This document shows, piece after piece, positions 48,106 through 59,007 of a DNA stretch of 64,000 bases. Positions within the stretch are counted from its first letter, which is position 1. Each line of letters opens with the position of its first letter. Where the stretch lies: contig CASEWE010000007.1 in assembly GCA_949291555.1 (NCBI GenBank), positions 1 to 64,000 of the forward strand. Reading direction: 5' to 3'. A program made the translations under genes and the position numbers. This DNA comes from an uncultured Bacteroidales bacterium (GTDB lineage Bacteria > Bacteroidota > Bacteroidia > Bacteroidales > P3). The notes below the pieces were generated by a model. The model saw only the letters and a list, made by a program, of their open reading frames with translations, had not been told where the DNA came from and searched no databases.

Positions 48106-48160
48106 AAAAAAAAAGAACCTTTTGCATTTTAGCCTCGGCGGCATTATGCAAAAGGTTCTT
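48106..48160 (-). terminator. terminator ending the CRISPR-side minus-strand transcript
   Basis: On the minus strand, a perfect 15-bp stem (48160-48146 with 48127-48113, loop 18) is followed by a T-run of nine. It is ideally placed to end a transcript that began at the array leader and passed through the array, the 64-residue gene and the orphan guide. Confidence 0.9.
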
Positions 48161-48171
48161 GGAGGGATAAA

Positions 48172-48220
48172 GGACGAAAAAAATTAAATTTTAGACATAA
48201 ATCTACTATAGTAGAAATTA
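48172..48220 (-). ncRNA. orphan Cas12a crRNA-like mini-guide (CreR-like)
   Basis: On the minus strand AATTTCTACTATAGTAGAT (48219-48201) is an intact Cas12a crRNA handle: stem UCUAC/GUAGA, loop UAUA, against UGUU in the array repeats. The 5' part of the array repeat is absent just upstream. The bases that follow from 48200 (TTATGTCTAAAATTTAATTT) occupy the guide position. Their first nine match the bases right after a TTTG PAM in the cas12a promoter (55572-55564). Position 10 mismatches and the rest matches poorly, so binding without cutting is expected. I infer an autorepressor guide of the CreR kind. The 3' end is not defined by sequence; a T-run begins near 48184. Confidence 0.75.
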
Positions 48221-48229
48221 TTTTATGCT

Positions 48230-48245
48230 CGTATTTCGAAATACG
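48230..48245. promoter_or_regulatory. 16-bp perfect palindrome upstream of the mini-guide
   Basis: CGTATTTCGAAATACG, 10 bases upstream of the orphan handle on the minus strand. A weak -7-like TTTCTTTG (48263-48256) lies just before it, so the palindrome would sit at about +4 to +19 of a short transcript. It could be an operator or an RNA stem protecting the guide's 5' side. Confidence 0.45.
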
Positions 48246-48284
48246 TCAGTGAGAGCAAAGAAACGAAAATTTATGGTAAAATCC

Positions 48285-48310
48285 ATAATGTTTAAAGATC
48301 TTTCTCAAAC
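48285..48310 (-). repeat. degenerate 5' half of the CRISPR repeat
   Basis: On the minus strand GTTTGAGAAAG (48310-48300) equals the first 11 bases of the array repeat; the following bases (ATCTTTAAA) only loosely resemble it. With the orphan handle at 48220-48201 it suggests that the mini-guide descends from a decayed repeat-spacer-repeat unit. Confidence 0.6.
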
Positions 48311-48421: not shown

Positions 48422-48616
48422 TCAGGCCCCTTCCTTCGTCAAGTTTTGGGTAATTAAGTCCGACACGTAGACGCATTTGTTCCTGACGCCTTGCAATAAC
48501 GCATAGGCTTCTTTGGTTATGAGGATGGATTTGTATTCTGCCCTACTCCTCCCATTCTTGAATGGCCTGCCCGCGCCCGGACGCGCGCCGCCTCTCCTCT
48601 CTATCTTACCTTCCAT
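48422..48616 (-). CDS. small basic protein with RGGARPGAGRP motif
   Basis: A 64-residue protein starting at ATG 48616, seven bases past the end of the distal CRISPR repeat and on the same strand. The N-terminus RRGGARPGAGRPFKNG is a Gly/Arg/Pro motif common at the start of small phage and mobile-element DNA-binding proteins (often ribbon-helix-helix or terminase-small-subunit-like). The rest (SRAEYKSILITKEAYALLQGVRNKCVYVSDLITQNL) could form a short strand and two helices, as in a ribbon-helix-helix fold. It could be a regulator tied to the CRISPR locus, or a relic of a mobile element. No toxin signature is seen. Confidence 0.65.
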   Translation of the reverse strand: MEGKIERRGGARPGAGRPFKNGRSRAEYKSILITKEAYALLQGVRNKCVYVSDLITQNLTKEGA

Positions 48617-48622
48617 GACATT

Positions 48623-49683
48623 ATTTATAACAGTAGAAATTAAAAGCCTTTCTCAAACTGATGTCGCAAAACTTCAAGATATTCCTTCATCTACAACAGT
48701 AGAAATTAAAAGCCTTTCTCAAACTTCCTGTCCGCGATCGGAAAGGGTCAAATCTACAACAGTAGAAATTAAAAGCCTTTCTCAAACAGAGAGGCAGGAA
48801 ATCACCGTGAGCTTATCTACAACAGTAGAAATTAAAAGCCTTTCTCAAACTCCGCGGTAATTCCTGCTATCGTAGTAAATCTACAACAGTAGAAATTAAA
48901 AGCCTTTCTCAAACCTTGATTTCGACTATTTCATCGGTGCGATCTACAACAGTAGAAATTAAAAGCCTTTCTCAAACCGGGAAGGCCTCGTCCCGGTATC
49001 TTCATCTACAACAGTAGAAATTAAAAGCCTTTCTCAAACTAAAGGACTGTTAGACGCATCGCGCTGATCTACAACAGTAGAAATTAAAAGCCTTTCTCAA
49101 ACCTGCGGCAGGCGCTAACGCCATGCGCATCTACAACAGTAGAAATTAAAAGCCTTTCTCAAACATGGTATTCGAGCAGGTGTGCGCTGACCTGATCTAC
49201 AACAGTAGAAATTAAAAGCCTTTCTCAAACCTAGACCTTTACCTAAGCCAGATTCATTAATCTACAACAGTAGAAATTAAAAGCCTTTCTCAAACCGGCT
49301 TGGCCCCTAAAGGAGTCCACTATATCTACAACAGTAGAAATTAAAAGCCTTTCTCAAACCCAATATGCGAGACAGTCAGGTACTGGCTATCTACAACAGT
49401 AGAAATTAAAAGCCTTTCTCAAACCAAGTATTGTCAATCCGGCTTTCTTTTATCTACAACAGTAGAAATTAAAAGCCTTTCTCAAACCCCTGGGCTGTCC
49501 GGAAAGCGCACCGGAATCTACAACAGTAGAAATTAAAAGCCTTTCTCAAACCGGGAACAATCAACATGTTAACATTTACGAATCTACAACAGTAGAAATT
49601 AAAAGCCTTTCTCAAACCGACTTCGAGAACTTGGGCGAGATATGCATATCTACAACAGTAGAAATTAAAAGCCTTTCTCAAAC
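48623..49683 (-). CRISPR. type V-A CRISPR array, 17 repeats and 16 spacers
   Basis: The 36-bp repeat on the minus strand starts GTTTGAGAAAGGC and ends with the Cas12a handle AATTTCTACTGTTGTAGAT. The 17 repeats begin (leader-proximal first) at 49683, 49617, 49551, 49487, 49424 and so on to 48658. Spacers are 26-30 bp. All repeats are identical except the distal one (48658-48623), which has two G-to-A changes (GTTATAAAT) that break the handle stem, as expected for the oldest repeat. Transcription runs away from cas2. No spacer matched elsewhere in the window on inspection. Confidence 0.98.
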
Positions 49684-49852
49684 CCAAAGGCATACAAAGG
49701 TAGGTTTTATTTTTCAATAATACAAACCATTGCCATAAGATTGTTTTGGGGTTTTTAATCCCCCCTATTTTGCTTTCGAAAAATATAAGGTTTGATATTT
49801 AATTTATTACGGATTTAAAAGGGCGATATGGAGCTTGGGGTTTGCAGGCGTT
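49684..49852 (-). promoter_or_regulatory. CRISPR leader with array promoter
   Basis: AT-rich leader between cas2 and the first repeat. On the minus strand TTTG (49726-49723), 20 bp, then TACCTTTG (49702-49695) is a near-ideal promoter, and the first repeat begins 11 bases after the -7 box. Initiation is therefore expected a few bases before or at the first repeat. An AATCCCCCC-like region with complementary GGGG/CCCC runs (49746-49767) forms a small hairpin upstream. Confidence 0.8.
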
Positions 49853-50122
49853 TCAAAGAAAGACGATGTCTTGGTCGATATGGATGGCGCTGCCGTATTT
49901 TTTCAAGCAATCTCGTTGTACCTCGAAGATGATCACGCTGTCGGAAGGGGAAAACTGTTTGGCAAACGCTTCTATCTTGATCAAGAGATTGTTCGAGAAT
50001 CGTTTCGTGTTCACAATTTCGTAAACAGAGAGTTGGAGGCGGATGGCCCCGTTTTTCGTCAACATCTTTGAAAACCGTGCACGCATTCGGTTGTCGGCAA
50101 TATCGTAGCTGACCAGAAGCAT
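49853..50122 (-). CDS. cas2: CRISPR-associated endonuclease Cas2
   Basis: An 89-residue adaptation protein. The core LLVSYDIADNRMRARFSKMLTKNGAIRLQLSVYEI shows the ferredoxin fold with the metal-binding Asp of the first strand. ATG 50122 overlaps the cas1 stop (TGATG), so translation is coupled; a GTG one codon earlier is less likely. Cas2 dimers bridge two Cas1 dimers in the integrase that inserts new spacers at the leader, which begins just downstream. Confidence 0.95.
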   Translation of the reverse strand: MLLVSYDIADNRMRARFSKMLTKNGAIRLQLSVYEIVNTKRFSNNLLIKIEAFAKQFSPSDSVIIFEVQRDCLKKYGSAIHIDQDIVFL

Positions 50123-51099
50123 CACATTTCGTATTTAGGGTAAGCATCGATAGGCTTGTTGCCCATGAAAGCACGATAAAAGGTTTGTATGTATCGGAAT
50201 ATCTCCATTTTTCTTTCGGTGAGTTCCGACAGGAAGACTTTATAGTATTCCATGGATTTTCCGGGTTTGAGCGAATGCTCTCCTTTTGAATACATAAAGT
50301 CGTTTTCTTTGAACTGGTTCCGATGGAAAGCTAATAGCACGGTGTGGTCGATGAGGCATCGGAACGGTTCTATCAAATCGCAGACCAACGATTTGCGTTG
50401 GAACCAGAGCCGGTGGTACACGCCGATATACAAATCGAATCCGAACATCCGGATGAAGCATTCCAGGAAGTTGAATAGAAGGGTATACCCGATGTCGAGG
50501 GTTGTGTTGAGGATATCGCATTTTGTTCTGGGTTTTCGGCCGTTCCAGCCAAGGTTTTGGTAGTAGGCGGCGAAGAAAAATTTTGCAATAGCACCTTCAA
50601 GGCTCATTAGCTTGAAGTAGTCATTGATGTCAGGCAGGACGGTGAGAGCCTGGTCGCAGCGTGCAACGGCTTCAAGCGTTTTGGAATCTTTTTTCCGGGT
50701 TTTCTTCAGGCAGGCCCGTTGATTCTCGATTTTGTTTGCGACCAGGATTCTCGCAATTGCAAGATCCGATTTCTCGAACGCATATTGGCGCTTTCGGAGC
50801 AGGAAATTCCCTTCTGCCGTATTTGCCCAGTAGAAAACAGGTCTTAGGTTAGGTTTTACAACGATTAAAGCTACGTTGTATTTTTTGCATTTTTCGATCA
50901 ATGGGGTTGTGATGGAGGCCTGTCCAATGATGAATAACGCTAAAATCTTCTGGAAGGGGAATTTTGTCAGTGTTTTGTTTTTTCCATCGAGGCTCTGTTC
51001 GAGCAGGAATTCCCCGTTCTTCACGCGCAGATGGCGGTTTTGTTCCATGCAATCGAGGATGAAAATCGTCCGCGTCCTTAAATCGTTACTGGTAAACAT
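50122..51099 (-). CDS. cas1: CRISPR-associated integrase Cas1
   Basis: A 325-residue metal-dependent integrase. The C-terminal alpha-helical domain carries the catalytic triad in LEGAIAKFFF (Glu), GVYHRLWFQRKSLVCDLIEPFR (His and Asp). The N-terminal beta-sandwich starts at ILDCMEQNRHLRVKNGEFLL. Length is normal for type V-A Cas1. Its start overlaps the end of cas4 by 14 bases and its stop overlaps cas2. With Cas4 and Cas2 it trims, orients and inserts PAM-adjacent fragments. Confidence 0.96.
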   Translation of the reverse strand: MFTSNDLRTRTIFILDCMEQNRHLRVKNGEFLLEQSLDGKNKTLTKFPFQKILALFIIGQASITTPLIEKCKKYNVALIVVKPNLRPVFYWANTAEGNFLLRKRQYAFEKSDLAIARILVANKIENQRACLKKTRKKDSKTLEAVARCDQALTVLPDINDYFKLMSLEGAIAKFFFAAYYQNLGWNGRKPRTKCDILNTTLDIGYTLLFNFLECFIRMFGFDLYIGVYHRLWFQRKSLVCDLIEPFRCLIDHTVLLAFHRNQFKENDFMYSKGEHSLKPGKSMEYYKVFLSELTERKMEIFRYIQTFYRAFMGNKPIDAYPKYEM

Positions 51100-51652
51100 T
51101 TTCTTTTGAAAACTTATCGCATAAATTGCTGTAAATGCAATGGCTGCATTTGTTTGGGTTGAGTTCGACGGGCGATTCTAACGAGAAATGCTTGAAGTTC
51201 TCGATGAATCGCTCCAATTCTTCCCTTTCTTTTTCCCCGGGAAGCGGGATCGGGATGTATTTTTGCGAGGCGATTTCCTGAAAGGCTAAGTAATCGACCG
51301 GATAGCCCATTTCTGTCAAGCAGTAATACTGTCCCCATAACTGGTAGAGTCGCCCTTTGAACAGGTGCGGAAGCCGGTATTTCCGTTCGATAAGTTTTCT
51401 TTCCTGTTTGCGGTAGAGGTCTATCTTCCCTAAGAGGCCTAAAGATTCGGAGTAGACAGGCAAGGACATCAGATCTGTTTTCCGCGTGCTGTATGTTTTC
51501 TGATCGATTGTCTGGTGTGCTAAAAGACCTTTGATTTGCGGTGCGGCGTGGTATAATCCGGTATCAGCCGGCTGATATACTTGATGGAGGTAGAGGGAAT
51601 AGGGGCAAAAGCAAAAGTCGTTCAGCGCAGAGAGGGGTATGTAATCGTCCAT
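51086..51652 (-). CDS. cas4: CRISPR-associated exonuclease Cas4
   Basis: A 188-residue RecB-like nuclease. ATG 51652 (MDDYIPLSALNDFCFCPYSLY) is the family-typical start; the frame extends to a GTG at 51685, but that lies in the stem of an intergenic hairpin. Iron-sulphur cysteines: CFCPYSLY near the N-terminus and CSHCIYSNLC near the C-terminus. Nuclease motifs GLLGKIDLYRK and KLIERKYRL supply the Asp and Glu-x-Lys residues. Cas4 checks the PAM and sets spacer orientation. Overlaps cas1. Confidence 0.93.
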   Translation of the reverse strand: MDDYIPLSALNDFCFCPYSLYLHQVYQPADTGLYHAAPQIKGLLAHQTIDQKTYSTRKTDLMSLPVYSESLGLLGKIDLYRKQERKLIERKYRLPHLFKGRLYQLWGQYYCLTEMGYPVDYLAFQEIASQKYIPIPLPGEKEREELERFIENFKHFSLESPVELNPNKCSHCIYSNLCDKFSKENVYQ

Positions 51653-51673
51653 GGGATTGGCGGTGCGCTTTTG

Positions 51674-51717
51674 AGAAGGCTGCACGGGCAGGATTTCCCC
51701 TGCCCGTGCAGCCTTCT
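51674..51717 (-). other. 19-bp perfect hairpin between cas12a and cas4
   Basis: Left arm 51674-51692 (AGAAGGCTGCACGGGCAGG) pairs exactly with 51699-51717 across a 6-base loop. It lies between the cas12a stop (51749) and the cas4 start. No T-tract follows on either side, so it is not a standard terminator; it may cause partial termination or act as an RNA-processing barrier setting Cas12a above the adaptation proteins. Confidence 0.85.
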
Positions 51718-55537: not shown

Positions 55538-55563
55538 GGTTTTAATTTTTATGTTTTATTATA

Positions 55564-55602
55564 TAGACATAACAAAGATAAATAAAAATCTGGAGAAGAC
55601 AA
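55564..55602 (-). promoter_or_regulatory. cas12a promoter containing the mini-guide target
   Basis: On the minus strand TTG (55602-55600), exactly 19 bp, TATCTTTG (55580-55573): a canonical promoter. The last four bases of the -7 box, TTTG, are a Cas12a PAM, followed at once by TTATGTCTA (55572-55564), identical to the first nine guide bases of the orphan mini-guide at 48200-48192. Bound Cas12a would cover the -7 box and start site. Confidence 0.85.
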
Positions 55603-55674
55603 CCAGTATTCGTTTTTATTCCCACGCCCCCCCTGCCTTCCCGCCTTCGGCATTGTTTGCTACCTTTGTGTTGG

Positions 55675-55838
55675 CACGAAGATAGGAGGCGGCTCGGCCA
55701 TGGCCATCCGAGCAAGCTCGATGGCGCATGGCGCTCGCCTTTCGCTATCTTTGTTCCACGAAGATAGGAGGCGGCTCGGCCATGGCCATTCGAGCAAGCT
55801 CGATGCCCATGGCGCTCGCCTTTCGCTATCTTTGCAAA
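55675..55838. repeat. palindromic ~80-bp repeat, two copies
   Basis: Units start at 55675 and 55757 (period 82) with CACGAAGATAGGAGGCGGC and end CGCTATCTTTG. Each is a long imperfect palindrome: GAAGATAG pairs with CTATCTT at the other end, and CTCGGCCATG...CGAGC pairs with CTCGATGG...CGCTCGCC. The same family recurs at 59056. The unit ends in TATCTTTG, a -7 consensus, and the second copy could supply the promoter of the next gene. Confidence 0.85.
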
Positions 55839-55876
55839 CGGGCATGTCGACTGCCGTAAGATAAAAACCAACAATC

Positions 55877-58470: not shown

Positions 58471-59007
58471 ATGAAACCAAACGATATGTCGAATTACAAG
58501 ATCAAATTGCCCAAAGTAACCACGTTCATTTTCGATTTCGATGGCGTGATGAGCGATGGCCATGTGTGGCTGTTCAGCGAGCAGGACCAGATACGCTGCA
58601 CCAATGTGAAAGACGGGTACGCGCTGCATCAGGCCGTGAAGAAAGGCTACCATGTGGCGGTGATTTCGGGCGGGAAAGGCGAGTCGATGAAGACCCGCAT
58701 GCGTTTCCTGGGCGTGGAAGATGTCTTTACGGAAGTTTCGTACAAGAAAGACAAATTCATGGAATACTTGCGCCAGAAAGGGCTCTGCGCGGAAGAAGTC
58801 TTGTACATGGGCGACGATATTCCCGATTACGAGGTGATGAAGCTGGCCGGGGTTTCGGCTTGCCCGGCCGATGCGGCGGTCGAAATCCAGGAAATAGCCG
58901 ATTACGTTTCCTTGCGCAAAGGCGGCGAAGGCTGCGTGCGCGATGTGATAGAACAGGTGATGCGGGTGCGTGGGGACTGGTTCGACGAGGCCTCTTTGCA
59001 TTGGTGA
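58471..59007 (+). CDS. kdsC: 3-deoxy-D-manno-octulosonate 8-phosphate phosphatase
   Basis: A 178-residue HAD phosphatase of the C0 (no cap) type: motif I FIFDFDGVMSDG, motif II VISGGKGES, a central Lys in VSYKKDK and motif IV YMGDDIPDYEVM. It removes phosphate from KDO 8-phosphate in the synthesis of KDO for lipopolysaccharide inner core, acting in the cytoplasm as a tetramer. ATG 58471 (MKPNDMSNYKIK) is preferred over the frame start at 58447. Good length match. Confidence 0.92.
   Translation: MKPNDMSNYKIKLPKVTTFIFDFDGVMSDGHVWLFSEQDQIRCTNVKDGYALHQAVKKGYHVAVISGGKGESMKTRMRFLGVEDVFTEVSYKKDKFMEYLRQKGLCAEEVLYMGDDIPDYEVMKLAGVSACPADAAVEIQEIADYVSLRKGGEGCVRDVIEQVMRVRGDWFDEASLHW

Follow-up and report, generated by a model that had tools for sequence, protein, structure and literature searches.

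We report on a solitary Cas12a guide unit in the type V-A CRISPR locus of an uncultured Bacteroidales bacterium, and propose that this unit (48219-48106, minus strand) is probably a CreR-type autorepressor guide aimed at the promoter of its own cas12a gene. The first nine bases of the guide are those that directly follow the -7 box of the cas12a promoter, and a comparable agreement between guide and promoter is seen in a second genome of the same family. Coordinates refer to the window, the whole stretch of 64,000 nucleotides that was analysed.

The original CreR report is said to be a 2023 paper in Cell Host & Microbe. Excerpts of two reviews (PMC13131331, PMC12737573) describe CreRs as the cas-regulating RNAs of mini-CRISPRs, known from types I-B, I-E and V-A; those of type V-A are solo guides that direct Cas12a against its own promoter, a repression lifted by array crRNAs or anti-CRISPRs.

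The solo unit and its type V-A locus

The minus strand of the window carries a complete type V-A locus, comprising cas12a, cas4, cas1, cas2 and an array with the Cas12a handle (Table 1). In translation and alignments the Cas12a protein contains GIDRGER, LEDLN and ADANGAY, which we take to be its RuvC catalytic motifs. Upstream of cas12a a GC-rich stretch that ends in TATCTTTG can be made out by eye in two near-copies (55670-55850), and similar text seems to be repeated near 59000.

Table 1. Features of the type V-A locus, the solo unit and the cas12a promoter in the window.
Feature	Position	Strand	Remarks
TTG, possible -33 element	55600..55602	-	19 nt upstream of the -7 box
-7 box TATCTTTG	55573..55580	-	last four bases TTTG (55573-55576), likely PAM
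Predicted 20-nt target in cas12a promoter	55553..55572	-	55564-55572 is the guide-seed match
cas12a, 1262 aa	51749..55537	-	TIGR04330, 1424.8 bits
cas4 (type V)	51086..51685	-	TIGR04328
cas1 (type V)	50122..51099	-	TIGR04329
cas2	49853..50125	-	TIGR01573
TACCTTTG, likely -7 box of array promoter	49695..49702	-	directly before repeat 1
CRISPR array	48623..49683	-	16 intact repeats and a degenerate last one; spacers 26-30 nt
64-aa ORF	48422..48616	-	between array end and solo unit; no family match
GTTTGAGAAAGATCTTTAAAC, like 5' part of array repeat	48290..48310	-	likely decayed repeat; by-eye comparison
TTTCTTTG, weak candidate -7 box of solo unit	48256..48263	-	one letter off TAnnTTTG
Solo Cas12a handle AATTTCTACTATAGTAGAT	48201..48219	-	0 mismatches; loop TATA (array handles: TGTT)
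Guide TTATGTCTAAAATTTAATTT	48181..48200	-	first 9 nt are the seed match to the cas12a promoter
Terminator-like hairpin closing solo unit	48106..48160	-	arms 48160-48146 and 48127-48113, then T run

The isolated, intact handle that a preliminary description of this DNA had placed beyond the array was verified, and the 16 other handle matches in the window, each with two mismatches in the loop, are all array handles. The unit stands about 400 bases past the array end and about 1.6 kb beyond cas2, still within the cas locus; it thus shares with CreRs the arrangement of an isolated repeat-plus-guide unit near the cas operon and separate from the array. Together with its closing hairpin (48110-48257, minus strand) it folds at -36.5 kcal/mol (z -5.46). 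In Rfam, at E values of 1 or less, the hairpin drew only plastid 3'UTR matches, all below threshold.

No exact TAnnTTTG precedes the unit on the minus strand between 48215 and 48640; the weak candidate TTTCTTTG stands 36 nt before the handle. A terminator scan confined to loops of 3-8, a limit that also makes it omit the hairpin of the solo unit, listed no minus-strand terminator between the array promoter and the unit. The repeat-like stretch at 48310-48290 adjoins the solo unit and suggests an origin from the old end of the array, of which the unit was probably once the distal part. The small ORF between the two has no match in NCBIfam, Pfam, PHROGs or PADLOC, and carries a GGARPGAGRP motif.

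The guide seed at the cas12a promoter

The primary sigma factor of Bacteroidota recognizes a -7 consensus TAnnTTTG and a TTTG near -33, according to the part of PMC7366714 at hand. The cas12a promoter of the window is laid out as TTG-N19-TATCTTTG-TTATGTCTA. Alignment confirmed the pairing given in the preliminary description, in which guide positions 1-9 are identical to the promoter bases after the -7 box and 4 of the 11 positions beyond the seed match (13 of 20 overall); it likewise confirmed that the adjacent TTTG, at 55576-55573, is the end of that box. Limited complementarity to the cognate cas promoter is a CreR feature, found here beside TTTG on the assumption, taken from the family, that the PAM of this Cas12a is TTTV. 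For cutting, Cas12a would be expected to need a guide match longer than this nine-nucleotide seed.

Within the window TTATGTCTA occurs twice, at 48200-48192 and 55572-55564 on the minus strand, against 0.05 copies expected from shuffles. When TTTVTTATGTCTA, which is TTTV followed by TTATGTCTA, was searched with up to one mismatch in the 2,281,463-base assembly (97% complete), the cas12a promoter was the single match, and the reversed control gave five. Of 2,000,000 shuffled guides, 1604 (0.08%) reached a nine-nucleotide seed at one or another TTTV site from -250 to +30. The chance of 1 in 262,000 that had been put forward for a match at one preset site proved too small, the guide being very A+T-rich; calculated by hand it is about 4 in 100,000, so that the match is good but less extreme than first estimated. 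The evidence from the whole-genome test is stronger than that from the shuffles. The shortness of the match, nine bases, and the A+T richness of the guide both count against an autorepressor.

The landing motif itself is common in these promoters. Of 32 cas12a upstream regions, taken from named Bacteroidales and from the order, family and phylum of the window, 20 contain TAnnTTTG in the stretch from -130 to -15, where shuffles would give 3.0. A Cas12a landing site is accordingly present in most of them, though not every box need be a promoter.

Related loci, a second case and phage handles

Cas12a loci were collected from named genomes (15 loci) and from the order, family, phylum and three other families. 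Genomes with a match, the window's own included, numbered 17 of 393 in the order, 9 of 61 and then 13 of 190 in the family, and 2 of 395 in the phylum; the three other families (2 of 9, 2 of 4 and 2 of 5 genomes) added nothing new, and a second draw of 393 genomes around a different centre returned the same matching genomes, the own one excepted. Locus L010 was excluded as a copy of L059. Loci with fewer than 100 bases before cas12a were left out of the spacer comparison, the 41-promoter table and the wider-handle run described below, and L020 also out of the last two; the cas12a start is uncertain in L064 and L020.

Across the 29 loci with intact handles, none of 369 array spacers matches the region upstream of its own cas12a over eight nucleotides beside TTTV; the best, a single spacer, reaches seven. 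A seed of at least eight nucleotides is found in two of the four solo handles, those of the window (nine) and of L070 (eight); L021 and L064 score 2 and 3. That both matching units should be solos by chance has a probability of about 9 in 100,000 (by hand). This comparison requires a TCTAC/GTAGA stem and so misses the array of L070, whose stem is CCTAC/GTAGG; a wider handle definition that admits it (366 units) gave the same two hits only. When each guide was scored against 41 promoter regions, its own came out best: 9 for the window guide (next best 6) and 8 for the L070 guide (next best 4). Being unique in its genome, without equal among the array spacers and repeated independently in a second genome, the targeting of the cas12a promoter by the solo guide is well supported.

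The second case, L070, is genome G399 of the window's family, in which a solo handle precedes cas12a by about 610 bp. Its guide has an eight-nucleotide match beside TTTA on the antisense strand, just upstream of that genome's own TATCTTTG box, a seed that arose in 2189 of 2,000,000 guide shuffles. The agreement goes on beyond the seed, so that the guide tracks the promoter over about 20 bases, interrupted by one mismatch and by two one-base insertions on the guide side; 7 of 20,000 shuffled guides align equally well. This gapped match suggests that such guides arise as promoter copies and are weakened afterwards. By eye, the predicted site lies over the -33 region, so that the exact targeting position is not fixed between the two cases, and in G399 the -7 box does not supply the PAM.

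The covariation of seed and promoter in homologous loci, which the preliminary description had looked to, can be judged only in part. The search for close relatives carrying the unit found none, and apart from the window's own no cas12a-bearing genome of the same species or genus turned up; a solo unit with a matching seed is present in only 2 of the 29 loci with handles, which leaves no orthologous guides to align. The nearest cas12a genes are 54.8% (window) and 58.1% (G399) identical, the window's nearest spanning 50-55%. The guides of the window and G399 differ, and so do the promoters, and guide and promoter agree within each genome; since the search brought up close relatives of neither unit, this two-genome agreement is the best evidence of covariation at hand.

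The L070 locus has further features of its own. Array handles (L070:2286-2595) and solo handle differ by a compensated change, CCTAC/GTAGG against TCTAC/GTAGA. Directly after cas12a, a second, divergent Cas12a of 1137 aa is encoded on the minus strand (L070:4577-7990), with 811 bits to the PADLOC Cas12a model and no NCBIfam match; a relative (about 35%) follows cas12a in L075 of genome G760. Upstream of cas12a, L070:12009-12108 holds two 36-nt repeats around a 28-nt spacer, unlike the Cas12a repeat.

A fifth solo handle was found among the matches listed in a pattern search of 28 genomes. It lies in genome G135 near a phage-type integrase gene, does not match its own cas12a promoter and likely belongs to a mobile element. 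Its TATA-loop handle (L123:2408-2426, G135:C32:13407-13425) stands directly behind TAACTTTG and ahead of a terminator-like hairpin; the unit is a Racr candidate. In its own genome the G135 guide has one exact and seven one-mismatch matches (reversed control, five); the exact match appears by eye to lie inside coding sequence, and no target was assigned. By eye, the L064 solo still has a seemingly complete repeat, which would fit a remnant of an array. Handles conserved with a seed that does not match the promoter, which the preliminary description held to speak against its CreR interpretation, therefore do occur, in L064, L021 and G135; the part of that interpretation that concerns targeting in the window stands.

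Neither a seed-first search without an intact handle nor a relaxed handle definition gave a further convincing case, and a handle-like stretch in L059, whose seven-nucleotide match spans the start codon, was put down to chance. The fold shows the guide seed paired with the bases that precede the handle, but this was dropped as a feature of the window unit: seed-pairing helices of 6-7 pairs occur in three of four solos, and at least six pairs also in 35 of 376 array units. Against shuffles, six solos (window, L070, L064, G135 and two microviruses, without L021) have a mean z of -0.91, with p values of 0.04 for L064, 0.025 for one microvirus, 0.35 for the window and 0.40 for L070; 65 viral units have a mean z of -0.15.

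Viral contigs in IMG/VR hold the handle in its TATA, TGTT and TATT loop forms in 10, 24 and 55 stretches. They yield 73 distinct Cas12a handle units (L133-L142 and L145-L223), 65 of them without a neighbouring handle, and L141 and L180 carry units in tandem; together they are likely a set of type V-A RNA anti-CRISPRs, partly of Bacteroidota phages. Phage guides aimed at cas12a promoters were considered and set aside: 6 of the 73 have a seed of at least eight nucleotides somewhere in the 41 promoter regions, only slightly above the roughly 2.9 of shuffles, and none has nine. Two Capybara microviruses of less than 5 kb each have one Cas12a handle between annotated genes (L143:601-629, MK496734.1 2203-2231; L144:601-627, MK496751.1), and by eye that of MK496734.1 lies between the arms of a perfect 10-nt inverted repeat, with a terminator-like hairpin behind it.

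Alternative readings and the proposed autorepression

By its sequence features the window unit is likely a member of the type V-A CreR kind. It resembles the CreRs in the review excerpts in being a crRNA-like solo by the cas locus with a partial match to the cognate promoter and the same effector as predicted repressor, and may differ from them, as reviewed there, in its likely PAM, which is formed by the last bases of the Bacteroidota -7 box TATCTTTG and so is shared with promoter recognition. The use of the -7-box end as a Cas12a landing motif may be a new feature, and no solo unit of this kind in Bacteroidota is described among the open-access literature matches listed, which target the group only in part.

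It is unlikely, though of the alternatives this one survives best, that the solo unit is instead a Racr-type decoy from a phage or mobile element, tying up Cas12a with a guide whose sequence is irrelevant. Like the Racr, or solitary repeat unit, in the excerpted text of PMC10651486, where three type V-A candidates inhibited the V-A system of Moraxella bovoculi, the window unit is a single Cas12a handle outside an array. Its TATA-loop handle recurs letter for letter near the integrase in G135 and in 10 stretches of IMG/VR, where it mostly stands alone, and for the TATA-loop handles in phage contigs a decoy role is the more likely one. Unlike a Racr, which is encoded in a viral or mobile genome away from cas genes, the window unit sits in the host cas locus beside an apparent decayed repeat of the same array, and an iron-type alcohol dehydrogenase gene flanks cas12a on the far side. 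Nor is its guide arbitrary, having a unique TTTG-adjacent match in the genome and scoring best at its own promoter; and the unit lacks the handle-proximal TAnnTTTG that ends within 8 nt of the handle in 15 of the 73 distinct viral units. Despite the shared TATA loop, the window unit and the phage handles are thus likely separable by place and by the unique promoter match.

Slightly less probable again is a decayed array tail, whose last repeat drifted off and whose spacer matches the promoter by accident. The repeat-like remnant at 48290-48310, the degenerate last repeat of the array, and the L064 and L021 solos without a match to their own promoters speak for such decay. In the window, however, stem and handle are intact though the 5' part of the repeat is lost, the genome-unique match falls at the single most telling site, and there is an independent second case. 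That the guide is a CreA-like antitoxin silencing a nearby toxin, as in CreTA (a CreA guide with a CreT toxin), is highly improbable: a small ORF of no known family does adjoin the unit, and a partial guide match at a promoter is the same physical principle, but a CreA guide matches the promoter of the adjacent toxin, whereas the sole genomic match of the window guide to TTTV plus seed, at up to one mismatch, is the cas12a promoter, and the ORF has no family in the four collections searched.

The sequence data suggest a model for autorepression by the solo guide. Transcription of the unit would start at the weak promoter before it or run on from the array promoter, and Cas12a would excise the guide from this transcript. 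Cas12a would then carry the guide to the cas12a promoter, where the complex may occupy the -7 box and start site through the nine-base seed, forming a short R-loop that blocks sigma factor and RNA polymerase without licensing cleavage. Repression would be released once array crRNAs or anti-CRISPRs occupy Cas12a. The steps of non-cutting binding, repression and relief are drawn from published CreR work as told in the review excerpts.

We advance a broader idea tentatively, as one that we regard as possible and somewhat doubtful: since the Bacteroidota core promoter box TAnnTTTG is also a Cas12a PAM, a seed of about nine bases would make Cas12a a promoter-specific repressor, and cells would keep for this use a solo guide that began as a copy of the cas12a promoter and was blunted by mutations or indels. 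If this is true, every housekeeping promoter of the Bacteroidota would be a ready landing site for Cas12a, and the cas12a promoter could not drop the PAM without losing itself, so that the feedback loop would be locked. A simple rule may also follow for other Cas12a genomes: host regulatory solo guides could be told from phage decoy handles by a match in the promoter of their own cas12a, one that has no second copy in the genome where this was tested. The window genome and G399 offer two independent natural cases in which to study nuclease binding without cutting, and the autorepression proposed here would extend RNA-guided self-control of Cas12a to Bacteroidales promoters in which the PAM and the -7 element share letters.
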